The translations under genes were made by a program, and so were the position numbers. DNA of 64,000 bases, from positions 372,001 to 436,000 of the forward strand of contig NZ_VDFW01000001.1 in NCBI RefSeq assembly GCF_006152065.1, read 5' to 3'. Under the pieces are notes generated by a model. That model was not told the DNA's origin, made no database searches, and saw nothing but the letters and a program-made list of their open reading frames with translations. Shown here piece by piece: positions 43,657 through 51,800 of the stretch. How positions within the stretch are numbered: the stretch's first letter is position 1; every line of letters begins with the position of its first letter. The stretch is from Amycolatopsis alkalitolerans (GTDB lineage: Bacteria > Actinomycetota > Actinomycetes > Mycobacteriales > Pseudonocardiaceae).

Positions 43657-45363
43657 TCAACGCAGGTCCACCAGCACGAACGTCTTTGGCGGCAGCGTCG
43701 CGGCGCGCTCTGACGCCGTCGCGTCGCCCCAGGACAGCAGGATTCCCGCGGCTTCGCCGTCCAAGGGGGCCGTGACCGGCTCCGGGCCCAGGTTCACCGC
43801 CAGGCGCAGGGAGCCGCGGTGCAGGACAAGTGTGGAACCCTCGGCCTGCACCGTGAACCGGTCCAGCCGCGGATCCGCCAGTTCAGCGCGTTCGGCCCGG
43901 AGCGCGATCAGGGACCGGTACAGCTCCAGGATCTCCCGGTGGCCCGGTTCGTCACGTTCGGTCCAGGGCAGGCGCGAACGTTCGACCGTCGCCGGGTCGA
44001 TGGGGTCGGGAACCTCCGCCTCGCCCCAGCCGTGGCGGGCGAACTCCCGGCGCCTGCCCGTGCGGACCGCCTCGGCCAGCGCGGGGTCCGGGAACGAGGC
44101 GAAGAACTGCCATGGCGTGCTCGCCGCCCATTCCTCGCCCATGAAGATCATCGGCGTGTACGGCGAGCACAAGACGATCGCGGCCCCGCACGCGAGCCGG
44201 CCCGGCGACACCGAGGCGGACAGGCGGTCGCCGGTCGCGCGGTTCCCGATCTGGTCGTGGTTCTGCAGGTACGCCAGGAACCGGTGCCCCGGCACGGTGC
44301 GCGTGTCCACCGGACGCCCGTGAGTGCGGCCGCGGAACGAAGACCAGGTGCCGGCGTGGAAGAAGACCTCCCGCAGCGTGCGGGCCAGCGCGCCGGGTGC
44401 GGCGAAGTCGGCGTAGTAGCCGCTCTTCTCGCCGGTCAGTGCGACGTGCAGCGCGTGATGCAGATCGTCGGACCACTGCGCGTGCAGCCCGTACCCGTGG
44501 GCCTCGCGCGGGGTGACCAGTTTCGGGTCGTTGAGATCCGACTCGGCGATCAGCGTGAGCGGCCTGCGGACGGCCGCGGAAAGCGCTTCCACCGCGACGG
44601 CCAGTTCCTCCAGCAGATGCGTGGCGCGGCGGTCGGACAGCGCGTGCACGGCGTCGAGGCGCAGCGCGTCGACGTGGAAGTCCCGCAGCCAGCCCAGGGC
44701 GTTGTCGATGACGTAGCGGCGGACCTCGTCGGAACCCTCGCCGTCGAGGTTGAGGCCGGGACCCCAGTCGTTGTGCCCGGCGAAGTACGGGCCGAACCGG
44801 TCGAGGTACGCGCCCGAGGGCCCGAGGTGGTTGTAGACGACGTCGAGCACCACGGCCAGCCCGCGCCGGTGGCACGCGTCCACGAACCGCTTGAACCCGT
44901 CCGGCCCGCCGTAGGGTTCGTGCACCGCACCCCACAGCACGCCGTCGTAGCCCCAGCCCGCGGTGCCGTCGAACGAGTTGACCGGCATGACCTCGACGAA
45001 CGTGAGGCCGAGATCCGCGAGGTAGTCCAGCTTTTCGATGGCGGAGTCGAAGGTGCCGCCTTCGGTGAACGTGCCGATGTGCAGTTCGTACAGCACCCCA
45101 CCGGGCAGCGCGCGGCCTGTCCAGACCTGGTCCGTCCAGGCGAACGCGCTGTGGTCGTAGACGCGCGAGGGCTCGTGGACGCCGTGGGGCTGCCACGCCG
45201 AGCGCGGATCCGGCAGAGGTTCGCCGTCCCCGAGCAGGAACGAGTAGTCCGTTCCCGCGACCTCGGAGTACCACCACTCGCCCCGTTGGGCCATCTCGTG
45301 GTCGACGCCATCGACCCGCACGCGGACCCGCTGCTGCCCCGGGGCCCACACTCGGAAACTCAT
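43657..45363 (-). CDS. treZ: Malto-oligosyltrehalose trehalohydrolase TreZ
   Basis: A 568-residue GH13_10 enzyme starting MSFRVWAPGQQRVRVRVDGV (CBM48). Motifs: LYELHIGTFTEGGTFDSAI, DVVYNHLGPSGAYLDRFGPY, DALRLDAVHALSD (nucleophile), LTLIAESDLNDPKLVTP (acid/base) and YLQNHDQIGNRATGDRL. It releases trehalose from the maltooligosyltrehalose made by TreY. The ATG overlaps the treY stop by four bases, so synthesis is coupled. Last gene of the malQ-glgX-treY-treZ operon; it converges on the lipoprotein gene with 2 bp between stops. Confidence 0.96.
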   Translation of the reverse strand: MSFRVWAPGQQRVRVRVDGVDHEMAQRGEWWYSEVAGTDYSFLLGDGEPLPDPRSAWQPHGVHEPSRVYDHSAFAWTDQVWTGRALPGGVLYELHIGTFTEGGTFDSAIEKLDYLADLGLTFVEVMPVNSFDGTAGWGYDGVLWGAVHEPYGGPDGFKRFVDACHRRGLAVVLDVVYNHLGPSGAYLDRFGPYFAGHNDWGPGLNLDGEGSDEVRRYVIDNALGWLRDFHVDALRLDAVHALSDRRATHLLEELAVAVEALSAAVRRPLTLIAESDLNDPKLVTPREAHGYGLHAQWSDDLHHALHVALTGEKSGYYADFAAPGALARTLREVFFHAGTWSSFRGRTHGRPVDTRTVPGHRFLAYLQNHDQIGNRATGDRLSASVSPGRLACGAAIVLCSPYTPMIFMGEEWAASTPWQFFASFPDPALAEAVRTGRRREFARHGWGEAEVPDPIDPATVERSRLPWTERDEPGHREILELYRSLIALRAERAELADPRLDRFTVQAEGSTLVLHRGSLRLAVNLGPEPVTAPLDGEAAGILLSWGDATASERAATLPPKTFVLVDLR

Positions 45364-47621
45364 GCGCCGTCCCGCACCAGCAGTGCGACCGGATACCGCG
45401 TCAGCAGCTCCCCCACCCGCGGAACTGCCGTGAGGGACCCCCTCATGCCCTTATGTGCCGTGAGGGACCCCCTCACGGCACTGCCGGTCAGTGCATCGGT
45501 CCAGGTGCCGGGTGGCAGGGGCAGGACCGTGTCGCGCCAGCCCCCGGTCGAAGCGAGCCGGACCGGGAGGCGGGTTGCCACGGTGACGAGCCCGGCGCGG
45601 GCGAACGCCACGGCGTGCGCGGCCGCCGGTCCTTCCGCGTGAAGTGGGCGGTAGCCACGGAAAAGCTCGGGGCGCTCACGCCGCAGCGTCAATGCCTTGT
45701 GCACCACCAGGAGTTTCGCCGTGCCGGTGTCGTCGATCTCGGGGAGTTCGCCGCCGAGGATCTTCTCGAGCAGCTCGCGCCGGACGCCGTAGTCGACCGG
45801 ACGCCGGTTGTCCGGGTCCACAAGGGACAGATCCCACAGCTCCGTGCCCTGGTATACGTCGGGTACGCCGGGCGCGGTCAGCTGGATCAGCTTCTGCCCC
45901 AGCGCATTCGACCAGCCCGCCGCCTTGATCCGCTCGGCGAACGCCGCGACGTCCGGCTCGTCCAGCGCCCGCGCGGGCCAGGCCGCGATCTCCGCCTCGA
46001 ATTCCTCGTCGGGCTCGGTCCATGTGGTGCGGATCTTGGCTTCCCTGGCGGCTTTCAGCAGGTACTCACGCAGCCGCTCGGCGCTGATCGGCCAGGCGCC
46101 GACCAGTGTCTGCCAGGCCAGCAGGTTCAGCGCGGGTTCGTCGATCCCGCACTTCTCGGTCCACCGCTCCACCGCGTCGGCGAACTCGTCCGGCAACTCG
46201 GATAGCACGGCGAGGCGGGCCCGCACGTCTTCGGAACGCTTGGTGTCGTGGGTGGTCAGCGTGGTCATCGTCGCGGGATGTCCGGCCTCGCGCGCGGCGG
46301 CAAGGTCGTGGAACTCGGCGACACCGAGCCCGAAATGGTCCGGCGAGCCGCCGACCTCGTTCAACGCCGCGAATCGCGTGTACCGGTAAAATGCCGTGTC
46401 CTCGGTGCCTTTCGCGACGACCATGCCCGAGGTCTGCTGGATCCGCGTCGCGACCTCGCCATGTGGTTCGCCGCGCACGAGGCGATCGACCAGGTCCACT
46501 GTGGACGCAAGATCGGGGCGTTTCACCTTGACCCGTTCGACCGCGAGCGCCCAGTGCGCCGAACCCTCCGGCAAATACGAGCGGTACACCGGGAACGCGA
46601 TCATCAGCTCGGCGACGGCCTCGGCACCATCGGGCACCAGCGCGCCGATCCGGCGCATCTCCGCGACCAGGATCGTGTCGGTGACCAGGCGCCGCGCGTC
46701 CTCCTCGACGGCGTGGTAGTCCGGCGAACCGGCGAGCAGGGAGAACCGGGGCGCGGCGGCGGGATCGAGGAAAACCCCCGTGATCTCACGCAACGCGTCG
46801 TATCCGGTCGTGCCGTCCACCGGCCAGCTCTGCGGCAGATCCTCGCCCGGATGCAGGATCTTCTCCACGACCAGCCACGCGTCCGGCGCGGCCGACCGCA
46901 CCGCGCGCAGGTACCCGCCGGGGTCGGCGAGTCCGTCGGGATGGTCCACGCGCAGCCCGGTGACCTCGCCCGCGGCGACCCAGCGCAGCACTTCCCCGTG
47001 TGTGGCCTGGAAAACCTCGGGCAGCTCGACGCGCACCGCGGCGAGCGAGGTGATGTCGAAGAACCGCCGGTAGTTCAGTTCCGTGTTCCCGCGCCGCCAG
47101 TGCACCAGCTCGTAATGCTGCCGCGCGTGCACCTCGTCGGGAGTCCCGCCTTCGGTGCCGGGTGCGATCGGGAAGCGGTGTTGGTAGTACACCAGTTCGG
47201 AGCCTTCGATCTTCAGCTCCACGTCGTCACCGAGCACCGGCAGCAGGATCCGGCCACGGCTCCAGTCGATGTCGAAATAGGACGCGTAGGCCGAGGACTG
47301 CCCGTGCCGCAACACATCGAGCCACCACGGGTTCGGCACCGCCATATGGTTGGGCACGATGTCGACGACGAAGCCCAGCCCGGCCTCTCGCAGCTCCCGC
47401 GCCAGCGCCTGCCGACCGGGCTCTCCACCCAGCTCCGGCCGCGCACGCGCCGGATCGACCACGTCGTAGCCGTGTGCCGAGCCCGGCGTCGCGTCCAGCA
47501 CCGGCGACGCGTACAACGCACCCACGCCGAGCTTCCGCAGGTAGCCGACCTGGTTCCGGGCATCGGCGAAGGTGAACCCGGGGCGCAGCTGCAGCCGGTA
47601 GGTCGAGCTCGGCACGCTCAT
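45360..47621 (-). CDS. treY: Malto-oligosyltrehalose synthase TreY, with in-frame palindromic insert near the C-terminus
   Basis: A 753-residue GH13_26 enzyme: SVPSSTYRLQLRPGFTFADA, DIVPNHMAVPNPWW, GLRVDHPDGLADPGGYL (nucleophile), WLVVEKILHPGEDLP (acid/base), TTHDTKRSEDVRARLAVL, GVPDVYQGTELWDLSLVDPD. It turns the reducing end of maltodextrins into a trehalose unit. About 20 residues near the C-terminus (SAVRGSLTAHKGMRGSLTA) are encoded by a double-hairpin repeat and fall between DALTG and RVGELLTRYPVALLV, where a short loop is expected. The rest is intact, so the protein is probably active. The ATG overlaps the glgX stop. Confidence 0.95.
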   Translation of the reverse strand: MSVPSSTYRLQLRPGFTFADARNQVGYLRKLGVGALYASPVLDATPGSAHGYDVVDPARARPELGGEPGRQALARELREAGLGFVVDIVPNHMAVPNPWWLDVLRHGQSSAYASYFDIDWSRGRILLPVLGDDVELKIEGSELVYYQHRFPIAPGTEGGTPDEVHARQHYELVHWRRGNTELNYRRFFDITSLAAVRVELPEVFQATHGEVLRWVAAGEVTGLRVDHPDGLADPGGYLRAVRSAAPDAWLVVEKILHPGEDLPQSWPVDGTTGYDALREITGVFLDPAAAPRFSLLAGSPDYHAVEEDARRLVTDTILVAEMRRIGALVPDGAEAVAELMIAFPVYRSYLPEGSAHWALAVERVKVKRPDLASTVDLVDRLVRGEPHGEVATRIQQTSGMVVAKGTEDTAFYRYTRFAALNEVGGSPDHFGLGVAEFHDLAAAREAGHPATMTTLTTHDTKRSEDVRARLAVLSELPDEFADAVERWTEKCGIDEPALNLLAWQTLVGAWPISAERLREYLLKAAREAKIRTTWTEPDEEFEAEIAAWPARALDEPDVAAFAERIKAAGWSNALGQKLIQLTAPGVPDVYQGTELWDLSLVDPDNRRPVDYGVRRELLEKILGGELPEIDDTGTAKLLVVHKALTLRRERPELFRGYRPLHAEGPAAAHAVAFARAGLVTVATRLPVRLASTGGWRDTVLPLPPGTWTDALTGSAVRGSLTAHKGMRGSLTAVPRVGELLTRYPVALLVRDGA
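45427..45481. repeat. Double-hairpin palindromic element inside treY
   Basis: Hairpin one: GCCGTGAGGG, ACC, then CCCTCATGCCC (45427-45450). Linker TTAT. Hairpin two: GTGCCGTGAGGG, ACC, CCCTCACGGCAC (45455-45481), a perfect 12-bp stem. The same element occurs in malQ at 50986-51041. In the treY frame it has no stop and adds a two-fold RGSLTA repeat. Resembles a protein-embedded REP/MITE-like element. Confidence 0.85.
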
Positions 47622-49747
47622 CCGGCGACCTCGCGGATCCGCTGGAGCACCATCAGTGACCGGGCCGCGAGCGTGACCTTGCCGCCGGCCGCGACATCCG
47701 GTTCGCCGGGTTCCTCGATGATCTCGCCGTTCGCCGTGTCGATCATGATCGCCCACTCGGCGCCGTACTCACCGTCCGGAATGGTCAGTTCGATGTCCTC
47801 GTAATGCGCGTTGAACGCCATCAGGAACGAGTCGTCGCGCACCGGCATCCCGCGCTGGTCGAGATCGGGGATACCCTCGCCGTTGAGGAACACGACGACG
47901 GACTTGCCGAAGCCGTCGTCCCAGTTCTGCTCCTTCATCTCGCTCCCGGACGGGGTGAACCAGGCGATGTCGGCCACTTCGTCGCTCTTGCGGATCGGCT
48001 TGCCCTGGAAGAACCGCCGCCGCCGGAACACCGGATGCCGCCTCCGGAACTCCGCGAGCCGGCCGGTGAAGTCGACCAGATGCGGGTTCGCGTCGACCAG
48101 ATCCCAATCCACCCACGAGATCTCGTTGTCCTGGCAGTACGCGTTGTTGTTGCCCTGCTGCGTGCGGCCCATCTCGTCGCCGTGCAGCAGCATCGGCACA
48201 CCCTGCGACAGCAGCAGCGTCGCGAGGAAGTTGCGTTTCTGCCGCTCGCGCAGCGCCAGTATCCCGGAATCGTCCGTCTCGCCTTCGACGCCACAGTTCC
48301 ACGAGCGGTTGTCGTCCGCGCCGTCGCGGCTGTCCTCGCCGTTGGCCTCGTTGTGCTTTTCGTTGTAGGACACCAGATCCTGCAACGTGAACCCGTCGTG
48401 CGCGGTGACGAAGTTGATCGAGGCGAACGGGCGGCGGCCGTCGTCCTGGTACAGATCGGAGGAACCGGCGATGCGGGACGCGAACTCGCCCAGTGTCGCC
48501 GACTCGCCACGCCAGAAGTCCCGCACGGTGTCGCGGAACTTCCCGTTCCACTCCGTCCACAGTGGAGGGAAGTTGCCGACCTGGTAACCGCCGGGCCCGA
48601 CGTCCCACGGTTCGGCGATCAGCTTCACGCGGCTCACCGTCGGGTCCTGCTGCACGAGATCGAAGAAGGTGGACAGGCGATCGACGTCGTAGAACTCGCG
48701 GGCCAGCGTAGCGGCGAGGTCGAACCGGAACCCGTCCACGTGCATGTCGGTGACCCAGTACCGCAGCGAGTCCATGATCAGCTGCAACGTATGCGGGTTG
48801 CGCACGTTGAGCGAGTTCCCGGTGCCCGTGTAGTCCATGTAGTACCGCGGTTCGTCGTCGACCAGCCGGTAGTAGGCCTGGTTGTCGATGCCGCGCATGG
48901 ACAGCGTCGGGCCGAGGTGGTTGCCCTCCGCGGTGTGGTTGTACACGACGTCGAGGATGACCTCGATATCCGCCTCGTGCAGGGCGCGGACCATGCCCTT
49001 GAACTCCTGCACCTGACCGGCCTGTTCGGGCAGCGCCGCGTAACCCTCATGCGGGGCGAAGAACCCGATCGTGTTGTAGCCCCAGTAGTTCCGCAGGCCT
49101 TTCCGCGTCAGCCCGTGGTCGGTGATGAACTGGTGCACCGGCATCAGTTCGATCGCCGTCACGCCGAGTTGCTTGAGATGCTCGACCACGGCGGGATGCG
49201 CGAGCCCGGCGTACGTCCCGCGCAGCCGCGGCGGCACCGCTGGATGGTTCATCGTCAGCCCGCGTACATGGGCTTCGTAGATGACGGACTCGTTGTACGG
49301 GGTGCGCGGCGGCCGGTCGTCGGCCCAGTCGAAGAACGGGCTCACCACCAGCGAATGCGGTACGTGTGCGGCCGAATCCCCGTCGTTGCGCCCGCCGGGG
49401 GAGCCGAACGGGTACCCGAACAACGACTCGTCCCAGTCGAGGCCGCCGGAGATCGCCTTGGCGTACGGGTCGATGAGCAGCTTGTTCGGATTGCAGCGAT
49501 GCCCGTTCTCGGGCTCGTACGCCCCGTGCACGCGGTAGCCGTACCGCTGGCCGGCACCGATACCCAGCAGGTAGCCGTGGTGCACGAACCCGTCGACCTC
49601 GGGCAGCACGACGCGCTCTTCCTTGCCCTCCTCGTCGATCAGGCACAGCTCGACCCGGTCGGCGACCTCGGAGAACAGCGCGAAGTTGGTCCCGACACCG
49701 TCATAGGTGGCGCCAAGCGGGTAAGGCGTTCCGGGCCAGGGCGGCAA
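47618..49747 (-). CDS. glgX: Glycogen debranching enzyme GlgX/TreX (copy 2)
   Basis: A 709-residue GH13_11 enzyme. CBM48 start PGTPYPLGATYDGVGTNFAL and [20 protein letters not shown]; catalytic blocks DVVYNHTAEGNHLGPTLSM, GFRFDLAATLAREFYD (nucleophile), [17 protein letters not shown] (acid/base) and [21 protein letters not shown]. In a treY-treZ operon this is the TreX position: it debranches glycogen to supply linear chains for TreY. It differs clearly from copy 1 in the N-terminal domain, so the two are not a recent duplication. Its stop overlaps the treY start (ATGA), and its start lies 11 bp after malQ. Confidence 0.94.
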   Translation of the reverse strand: MPPWPGTPYPLGATYDGVGTNFALFSEVADRVELCLIDEEGKEERVVLPEVDGFVHHGYLLGIGAGQRYGYRVHGAYEPENGHRCNPNKLLIDPYAKAISGGLDWDESLFGYPFGSPGGRNDGDSAAHVPHSLVVSPFFDWADDRPPRTPYNESVIYEAHVRGLTMNHPAVPPRLRGTYAGLAHPAVVEHLKQLGVTAIELMPVHQFITDHGLTRKGLRNYWGYNTIGFFAPHEGYAALPEQAGQVQEFKGMVRALHEADIEVILDVVYNHTAEGNHLGPTLSMRGIDNQAYYRLVDDEPRYYMDYTGTGNSLNVRNPHTLQLIMDSLRYWVTDMHVDGFRFDLAATLAREFYDVDRLSTFFDLVQQDPTVSRVKLIAEPWDVGPGGYQVGNFPPLWTEWNGKFRDTVRDFWRGESATLGEFASRIAGSSDLYQDDGRRPFASINFVTAHDGFTLQDLVSYNEKHNEANGEDSRDGADDNRSWNCGVEGETDDSGILALRERQKRNFLATLLLSQGVPMLLHGDEMGRTQQGNNNAYCQDNEISWVDWDLVDANPHLVDFTGRLAEFRRRHPVFRRRRFFQGKPIRKSDEVADIAWFTPSGSEMKEQNWDDGFGKSVVVFLNGEGIPDLDQRGMPVRDDSFLMAFNAHYEDIELTIPDGEYGAEWAIMIDTANGEIIEEPGEPDVAAGGKVTLAARSLMVLQRIREVAG

Positions 49748-49758
49748 CTCGCATCTCC

Positions 49759-51738
49759 TCAGTCGGGCAACGGGCGGGCCGCCCGCAGGGTGGTGATCAG
49801 GCGGCGGACGCGCTCGTCGGCGAAGAACTCGTCGACGGTGACGGGCAAGGGTATCCGCCAGTTCGGGTACTGCTCGACGGTGCCCGGCAGGTTCGGCTGG
49901 CGGCGCTGGCCGACGACGTCGGCGGGGGCGGTCAGCAGCAGGCGGGAGGCGGCGGAGGCGAGCAGCGCGTGCAGCGCGGCCACCATGTCCTCGTAGGGAA
50001 TTCCTTGCCCGGCCAGGAAATCGGTGAGGTCCTCCCGTTCCCGGCCGGCCACCTCGTACTCCCGGTCGCCGTCGAGCAGGCCCAGTTCAGCGCGGACCCG
50101 CACGTGTTCCCCGGTGAGCCAGCCGGCGACGGTCGGCAGGTCGTGGGTCGTGATGCTCGCCATGGATTCGGGATCCCACTCGGATGGCGGAATGAACGGA
50201 TGCCCCGGCGTGTCGTAATCGCGCTGGAACCACAGCACGGCCGAGCTGAGCACGCCGCGTTCGTGCAGCGTCTCGGTGACTTCTGGCTCCACCGTGCCCA
50301 GGTCCTCGCCGACCACCACCGCGCCCGCCCGGTGCGCTTCGAGCGCGAGCACGCCCATCATCGCTTCGGCGTCGTAATGCACGTACGTCCCGCGAGAAGG
50401 CGGCTCGCCCGGCGGGATCCACCACAGCCGCCACAGGCCCGCGACGTGGTCGATGCGGATGCCGTCGGCATGCTGGAGCACCCCGCGCAGGACGTCACGG
50501 AACGGTGCGTAGCCCAGTTCGGCGAGCCGGTCGGGCCGCCAGGGCGGGAGGTTCCAGTCCTGGCCCTGCTGGCTGAACGCGTCGGGCGGCGCGCCGACGG
50601 TCACGCGTGGCGCGAAGACGTCGCCGAGCGCCCACGTGTCGGCGCCGCCCGGGTGCACACCGACAGGCAGGTCGTGCACGATGCCGACCGGCATCTCCTG
50701 TGCGGCCTCGCGCGCGGCGTCGAGTTGCTCGCGGCACAGGTGCTGGAGCCAGCCGTGGAAGGCGACGCGGTCCGCCAGCTCCTCGCGCGCCTTGACGACC
50801 TCGGGGCTGCCCGGATCGCGCAGCGGCTCGGGCCATTCGCGCCAGTCGGGGCCGTGTTTCTCGGCGAGCGCGCCGAAGGTCGCGAAGGCGTCCAGCGCGG
50901 GGTCGAGCTCCGCCGTTTCGCCTGGCCACAACAGTTCGAGCGCGGCGAGCTTCGCACTCCACACGGCGTCGTAGTCGATCAGTTCGGTGCCGTGAGGGAC
51001 CCCCTCACGGCACTTAAGGGCATGAGGGGGTCCCTCACGGCGTTCCGGCTTGAGAGCGCGGACGCGCGCGCGGGTCGGGGCGTCCGCGTCCGCAAACGCT
51101 TTCGTGTCGGTGACCCGCAGGTAGAGCGGGTTCGCGAAGCGGCGGCTGGACGGGGAGTAGGGCGAGCGTTCGACCGGGTGAGTCGGGCTGATCGCCTGCA
51201 CCGGGTTGACCAGCAGCACGCCCGCGCCCAGGTCCTTCGCGGACCGGCGGGCGAACTCCGCAAGGTCGCCGTAGTCCCCGGCGCCCCACGATTCGTCCGA
51301 GCGCAGCGCGTACAGCTGCAGCATCCAGCCCCACGCGGGCGGCACGTCCGGCAGCTTGTTCGGGACGACGGCGAGTACGACGTCCTGCTCCGCCGTGACC
51401 ACCCGGTGCCAGCCGAGCGGGAGATCGTCGGGAATGAACCGCTCGATCTCACGCCGCGTACCGTCTTCCAGGTGCACCACGGCCGGGCCGGTTTCGTACC
51501 CGGTGCCCTCCCCGAGCACCAGGGTCGGAGGCAGCACGGTACGTTCACGGGTCTCGCGGACCGCCGCCAGTTCACGCCGGATCGCTTCGGGGGTCGAAGC
51601 GTCGACGCCGAACTGGGCGAGCACCGCGACCACGACTTCGGCGTCGACGACGACCTCGCGCTGCTCGGCGTTTTCGTACCGGGTGGCGACTCCGTAGGCG
51701 TCCGCGAGTGCGGTGAGGTCGCTGAGGTCCTGCTGCAC
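49759..51738 (-). CDS. malQ: 4-alpha-glucanotransferase MalQ, with in-frame palindromic insert
   Basis: About 659 residues, GH77. Motifs: WGWMLQLYALRSDESWGAGD, SPYSPSSRRFANPLYLRVTD, DGIRIDHVAGLWRLWWIPPG (nucleophile Asp), VVVGEDLGTVEPEV (acid/base Glu) and TTHDLPTVAGWLTGEHV. It disproportionates maltodextrins, making chains for the other enzymes. Around residue 240, about 19 residues (ERREGPPHALKCREGVPHG) come from the double-hairpin repeat and separate RVRALKP from TELIDYDAVW, which should be nearly contiguous in a surface loop. The GTG start is chosen by homology; no ribosome-binding site is evident. First gene of the operon, divergent from the GH13 gene at 51801. Confidence 0.92.
   Translation of the reverse strand: MQQDLSDLTALADAYGVATRYENAEQREVVVDAEVVVAVLAQFGVDASTPEAIRRELAAVRETRERTVLPPTLVLGEGTGYETGPAVVHLEDGTRREIERFIPDDLPLGWHRVVTAEQDVVLAVVPNKLPDVPPAWGWMLQLYALRSDESWGAGDYGDLAEFARRSAKDLGAGVLLVNPVQAISPTHPVERSPYSPSSRRFANPLYLRVTDTKAFADADAPTRARVRALKPERREGPPHALKCREGVPHGTELIDYDAVWSAKLAALELLWPGETAELDPALDAFATFGALAEKHGPDWREWPEPLRDPGSPEVVKAREELADRVAFHGWLQHLCREQLDAAREAAQEMPVGIVHDLPVGVHPGGADTWALGDVFAPRVTVGAPPDAFSQQGQDWNLPPWRPDRLAELGYAPFRDVLRGVLQHADGIRIDHVAGLWRLWWIPPGEPPSRGTYVHYDAEAMMGVLALEAHRAGAVVVGEDLGTVEPEVTETLHERGVLSSAVLWFQRDYDTPGHPFIPPSEWDPESMASITTHDLPTVAGWLTGEHVRVRAELGLLDGDREYEVAGREREDLTDFLAGQGIPYEDMVAALHALLASAASRLLLTAPADVVGQRRQPNLPGTVEQYPNWRIPLPVTVDEFFADERVRRLITTLRAARPLPD
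50986..51041. repeat. Double-hairpin palindromic element inside malQ
   Basis: GTGCCGTGAGGG, ACC, CCCTCACGGCAC (50986-51012) is a perfect 12-bp hairpin. Linker TTAA is followed by GGGCATGAGGG, GGT, CCCTCACGGC (51017-51041). It is nearly the reverse complement of the treY copy but read in another frame (CCT-CAT-GCC...). No stop arises, so the gene stays open. Confidence 0.85.
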
Positions 51739-51800
51739 CCGTAAAGCATCGCGGTCCGGCCCGGGCCGCGCTACCGCTGGGCATGAGACAAGGAGCACGG

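Follow-up and report, generated by a model that had tools for sequence, protein, structure and literature searches.

A REPIN-like twin palindrome, in most carriers tested without a detected RAYT transposase, as a candidate gene-end hairpin in Amycolatopsis alkalitolerans and its family

A 64,000-nucleotide stretch of the Amycolatopsis alkalitolerans genome (the window), analysed together with the rest of that genome and with its relatives, leads us with moderate confidence to a REPIN-like repeat that spreads without a RAYT transposase and serves as a hairpin at the ends of genes, where a function as terminator may be proposed. The two copies that lie inside the genes malQ and treY would be tolerated strays of this repeat. 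The features of the window on which the description rests are the following:

49759-51798, minus strand: malQ, 4-alpha-glucanotransferase (GH77)
50988-51042, plus strand: element copy in malQ, canonical orientation, the gene reading through it antisense; edges taken from the 44 copies
50992-51008, plus strand: first palindrome of the malQ copy, with loop ACC
51022-51038, plus strand: second palindrome of the malQ copy, with loop GGT; its start lies 30 bp from that of the first
47618-49747, minus strand: glgX-like debranching enzyme gene, between malQ and treY
45360-47756, minus strand: treY, maltooligosyl trehalose synthase; true start probably close to 47621
45426-45480, minus strand: element copy near the 3′ end of treY, canonical orientation on the coding strand
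43657-45363, minus strand: treZ-like alpha-amylase-family gene, after treY

The listed start of the treY open reading frame is probably some 45 codons too far upstream; a solved homologue aligns with it from residue 48.

The element is 55 bp long and consists of two palindromes of 17 bp each, set exactly 30 bp apart, which can jointly form one long hairpin of up to 28 bp. Its consensus unit is TGCC[GTGAGGG NNN CCCTCAC]GGC, followed by a variable spacer with ATAAGGGC and then by [ATGAGGG NNN CCCTCAC]GGCA. In the window, the core GTGAGGGACCCCCTCA is present four times where 0.07 would be expected; the 6.78-Mb genome as a whole has 63 exact cores, and the reversed control none. Full copies number at least 44; fetched and aligned, they are scattered over many contigs, and the 30-bp register between the palindromes is present in all 44. 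A 45th full twin, at about G000:C16:31567, has one mismatch in one palindrome and is left out of all counts of 44. Conservation ends sharply at both edges of the 44 copies, at -4 and +50, and the spacer is more variable than the palindromes. The loop triplets of each half occur in either orientation (GGT/GGT in 14 of the 44 copies, ACC/GGT in 13 and GGT/ACC in 5), and in the GGT/GGT copies the loop does not mark the second palindrome as inverted. Direct flanking repeats of 2-6 nt were sought around the 44 copies as traces of target-site duplication: those of 3-6 nt were not above shuffled pairs, and those of 2 nt exceeded the shuffles at one offset (9 vs 5.2).

The long hairpin, rather than two separate ones, is favoured by the pattern of substitutions among the copies. 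In a gapless alignment of 34 copies, compensatory changes for the long hairpin amounted to 125 cells vs 55 in shuffles and the covariation to 0.347 vs 0.152, values that none of 500 shuffles reached in either case; the loop columns were paired in 31, 27 and 31 of 33. Compensatory support was higher for the long hairpin than for the two separate hairpins in this alignment. Two of the five covariation measures were weakly above the shuffles, being reached by 32 and 22 of the 500. The twin search pattern fixes TGA.GG...CC.TCA, with R or Y at variable stem columns, so these columns are constrained by construction and the fold test is informed by the loop, spacer and flank columns. RNA folding chose the long form in 87 of 88 folds from this genome and in 59 of 60 others, and the fold energies of its own copies range from -36 to -61 kcal/mol. 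A comparison with Rfam returned sub-threshold matches alone; at the malQ copy, microRNA families accounted for three of these.

The copies are concentrated between genes and close to their ends. A simple ORF caller based on GC at codon positions assigns 21 of the 44 copies to convergent gene pairs, 13 to co-directional and 4 to divergent pairs, and places 6 inside ORFs. Thus, 38 of 44 copies are outside ORFs, whereas of 1461 places drawn at random from these loci 159 were outside and 1302 inside, and 31 of 44 fall between -12 and 30 nt from a stop codon, compared with 27 of the 1461 random places. The convergent arrangement (21/44 copies) was found in 10 of 53 background gene pairs when the loci only were used; in an alternative run over window and loci, which counted one convergent copy more, 22 copies stood against 16 of 94 background pairs (Fisher p about 1e-5). 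No tRNA genes were found as targets in the 13 loci scanned. Eight neighbouring gene ends fall 8 nt inside one of the 44 copies, at the element's own TGA, the repeat apparently providing the stop codon of these genes. The six copies in ORFs comprise the internal ones of treY and malQ, two in-frame C-terminal extensions and two that probably lie upstream of the real gene start. As the ORFs read at loci L005, L067 and L042 (C2:122445, C74:79709 and C42:9636), the element extends in frame the C terminus of a molybdopterin oxidoreductase and of a family-2 glycosyltransferase, and it reads in frame into the N terminus of a HemN-type radical SAM protein.

A stable hairpin just past the stop codon is a trait of intrinsic terminators, and the element has it in the 31 of 44 copies near a stop. 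A U-tract was not found: no T run follows the element, and the terminator scan called neither copy of the window. The T excess in the 44 copies is weak and lies at the first flanking positions. In actinobacteria, intrinsic termination without a U-tract is disputed. We infer that the intergenic element acts as a gene-end hairpin and is a candidate terminator.

A further line of evidence came from the comparison of three convergent junctions with the orthologous gaps of relatives, namely those of 18 genus relatives whose fetched locus spans the site (13, 9 and 13 genomes for sites 1, 2 and 3; three rows of site 3 with gaps over 300 nt were set aside). The twin element was present in none of these 35 gaps. 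In 29 of them there was an inverted repeat longer than any that 30 shuffles, preserving base composition only, produced; by site, the significant inverted repeats were found in 8/13, 8/9 and 13/13 relatives. A first subset of 10, 9 and 8 relatives had given 22 of 27. At site 3, GCCGGCCTCC-type hairpins are common to six relatives, and between the same stop codons A. alkalitolerans has the element alone. This suggests that the element took the place of terminator-like hairpins at the three junctions. The relatives are 80-90% identical, a distance at which the timing of the loss of the ancestral hairpin relative to the arrival of the element is not visible. At convergent site 1, the locus from genome G015 (L264) has a single core palindrome that forms the tip of a longer hairpin. 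The non-convergent site 4 (C7:56148; 12 rows) showed neither a clean empty site nor a hairpin to be replaced.

The alternative that survives best, which we consider somewhat unlikely, is that of a passive, selfish palindromic MITE without function that inserts anywhere and whose insertions at gene ends are mainly those that escape selection. Sharp edges and dispersal fit such an element, and purifying selection would be expected to leave a bias towards intergenic regions, together with rare survivors in frame; moreover, REPs between convergent genes are known (PMC1525189). The window and 15 relative loci have 32 predicted convergent gaps, and 22 of these measure no more than 11 nt; gaps of 55-75 nt might then have arisen by plain insertion. 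Since most gaps are too short for a hairpin, the replacement reading is not extendable to all junctions, and at other junctions plain insertion explains the gaps as well as replacement does. Against this, plain insertion predicts the old hairpin plus the element at the three junctions, whereas the element stands alone where 29 of 35 relatives' gaps have a hairpin, and an insertion at random would seldom hit gaps so small.

The same architecture extends beyond the species. A search for the 30-bp twin pattern was positive in 60 of 390 genomes of the family, belonging to 11 of 46 genera, and the reversed control gave none. The sequence of the palindromes differs between lineages and the 30-bp register is constant. 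The number of twins reaches 466 in genome G266, 162 in G265 and 147 in G015, the last of which also has 486 single cores. For the 30 of the 60 carriers for which a locus was returned, one copy each was classified: 22 were convergent (background 7 of 46 pairs), 6 co-directional, 1 in an ORF and 1 undecided, and 16 of the 30 were close to a stop. Genome G266 has a different distribution: among the first 30 of its 466 copies, 21 lie between co-directional genes, 5 are convergent and 13 are close to a stop. The twins of this genome are spread over 6.9 Mb, and some of those inspected (L227-L256) share flanks of 20-30 nt or more per side, like mosaic repeats. The mostly co-directional arrangement and the longer flanks shared by some copies weaken a strict terminator reading in G266.

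REPINs, as PMC8049555 describes them, are two inverted REPs that form a hairpin and are copied by a RAYT, and the present element resembles those of Pseudomonas and E. coli in its inverted short palindromes, variable spacer, long hairpin, many copies and mainly extragenic location (38/44). It differs from them in the actinobacterial host, in palindromes whose sequence varies with the lineage and in that, for 27 of 29 carriers tested, a Y1/RAYT enzyme was not found. The search for Y1_Tnp (PF01797, RAYT family) was carried out in 72 and then 21 genomes, among them 29 distinct twin carriers of the 60. Matches were obtained in the carriers G025 and G315; the remaining 27, including A. alkalitolerans itself, G266 (466 copies, 2 contigs), G265, G015, G272 and others, had none. 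The same search was positive in 5 of 14 control genomes, E. coli included. A Y1 (RAYT-type) transposase was accordingly rejected as the driver in these carriers. A true REPIN/RAYT system, with a RAYT that was lost or is too diverged for PF01797 to recognise, is also unlikely in our judgement. The architecture of two inverted REP units and a spacer in one hairpin is the same as that given in PMC8049555, and the spacer varies more than the palindromes in the copies of this genome; the failure to find Y1_Tnp in all but two of the carriers tested, by a search that worked in the controls, argues the other way.

No protein family was found to recur beside the copies. In an all-against-all comparison of 326 predicted proteins from 104 loci, the largest cluster, among the 14 largest clusters listed, had 7 proteins from 6 loci; of the transposase families, Y1 was the one searched. 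A 359-aa ORF lies between two element copies 1.1 kb apart (L034:472-1551, on contig C39 of this genome), and it has neither a Pfam match nor a relative in the other fetched loci. We infer that the mobility of the element is self-driven.

The two coding copies, from which the analysis started, form a 93% inverted pair 5.5 kb apart (arms 45427-45481 and 50987-51041). They are on opposite strands and read in different frames, AVRGSLTAHKGMRGSLTA in treY and REGPPHALKCREGVPHG in malQ, which bears out the view of the initial annotation that one element sits in both genes as near reverse complements. Its further proposals, of a dispersed multi-copy element and of several stop-free frames, agree with the 63 exact cores and at least 44 full copies of the genome and with the frames of the 44 copies: three of the six frames are open in 21 copies, four in 19 and two in 4. 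Insertion in frame into genes, on the other hand, does not hold as a rule for the family, as only 2 of 44 copies are internal to genes and 2 more are in-frame C-terminal extensions.

Both inserts are absent from relatives. Protein alignment showed the malQ insert to be missing in 27 of 27 relatives (drawn from 80 loci; L086 holds part of the gene only and L076 is from another genus), the closest of which, A. sp. GM8, A. pithecellobii and A. bartoniae, are 82-86% identical. The treY insert was missing in 6 of 6 aligned relatives. At the nucleotide level, malQ has a net gain of 51 nt with respect to four distinct relatives and of 48 nt with respect to three (10 rows, three of them repeat genomes of other rows, hence 7 distinct), and treY has gained 48 nt relative to 6 of 6; all of these changes are in frame. 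Since 55 is not a multiple of three, a clean insertion would have put the gene out of frame; either the target gave up a few bases, or the site has drifted. In the AlphaFold model of MalQ (mean pLDDT 82.9, pTM 0.86), helices 240-248 and 276-290 are joined by a coil that contains the insert, and the pLDDT of residues 255-271 is below 50, as is that of three other stretches. In an alignment with the MalQ structure 5b68, which we take to be from Corynebacterium, the insert stretch corresponds to an 11-residue gap. The suggestion that the element had landed in a loop thus finds agreement for malQ in a predicted loop of low confidence. The treY insert ends about 21 codons upstream of the stop; the model of TreY, built from 7 sequences, had a mean pLDDT of 40.9 and was set aside for its poor quality.

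The best reading is that the malQ and treY copies are tolerated strays and not a regulatory device of the malQ-glgX-treY-treZ operon. The malQ and treY strays would have survived because most copies of the element are open in 3-4 of the 6 frames and because the net length change is a multiple of three, and the one in malQ also because its site is a flexible loop. It had also been proposed that, with both host genes in one operon, the copies might have a role at the level of mRNA. The layout of the four genes, all on the minus strand and nearly abutting, is consistent with an operon as judged from the sequence. An adaptive intragenic hairpin that tunes transcript polarity or decay in this operon is nevertheless very improbable. 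The hairpins predicted in the mRNA of the two genes are very stable (-48.1 kcal/mol and z -8.6 for the malQ copy, -41.4 kcal/mol and z -6.9 for the treY copy, both in coding sequence), but translating ribosomes would open an mRNA hairpin, neither insert is present in the relatives with treY still close to malQ (6/6), and two of 44 copies in one operon may be chance. A role specific to the operon is not supported; a role at the mRNA level for the element family as a whole, as a gene-end hairpin and possible terminator, is plausible. Finally, the initial annotation had held that two copies only, together with relatives lacking them, would favour local duplication, and the relatives do lack the inserts but the copies number at least 44. 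A duplication within the operon without mobility, to which the 93% likeness over 5.5 kb might point, was rejected by the genome survey, with 63 cores and full copies on many contigs, the malQ copy being 98% like those on contigs C7 and C34 and 92% like that of treY.

According to the favoured reading, that of a REPIN-like repeat serving as gene-end hairpin, the element would spread non-autonomously, either through a copying enzyme other than Y1 in most carriers tested or by recombination, and would replace a few to some tens of target bases on arrival. It would persist at gene ends where its hairpin stands in for a lost bidirectional terminator or 3′-end hairpin. A broader proposal, to which we give tentative credence only, is that these repeats constitute a RAYT-independent REPIN-like class in Pseudonocardiaceae, characterised by 'terminator takeover', a constant 30-bp twin-palindrome register, a sequence that varies with the lineage and occasional coding for protein.

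Other known repeats share single features with the element. Rickettsia palindromic elements (PMC10969869) are about 150 bp long and are frequently found inside ORFs, in frame within protein genes; the likeness lies in a palindromic repeat read in frame within coding sequence, and the difference in the 55 bp and mostly intergenic location of the present element. With IS-derived MITEs it has in common its short length, its non-autonomy and its inverted-repeat ends, unlike them having no 3-6 nt target duplication and no protein family that recurs beside the copies. The mycobacterial TRIT is a terminator built from repeated sequence. Repeated sequences that double as gene-end hairpins are also represented by the USS dyads of Haemophilus (PMC5217627) and the pneumococcal SPRITE (PMC10969869). 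In all three systems, as here, one repeated sequence forms the hairpin at many gene ends; the present element differs from them in its double palindrome, its lack of a T run and a terminator function that is putative. No paper in the literature search matched any of six 15-letter core sequences, and the titles and abstracts listed contained no description of palindromic repeats in Amycolatopsis or Pseudonocardiaceae. The single traits are already known; what would appear to be new is the combination of REPIN architecture, no RAYT and hairpin replacement.

If the favoured reading is true, REPIN-like repeats are able to multiply in the absence of the transposase regarded as their defining feature, and one repeated module can replace gene-end hairpins at many places of a genome. 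The malQ and treY copies would further indicate that three to four open frames and a net length change in multiples of three suffice for a non-coding repeat to become protein sequence. The existence in the same family of genomes with zero, 42 and 466 twin copies makes the copying enzyme searchable by comparison.
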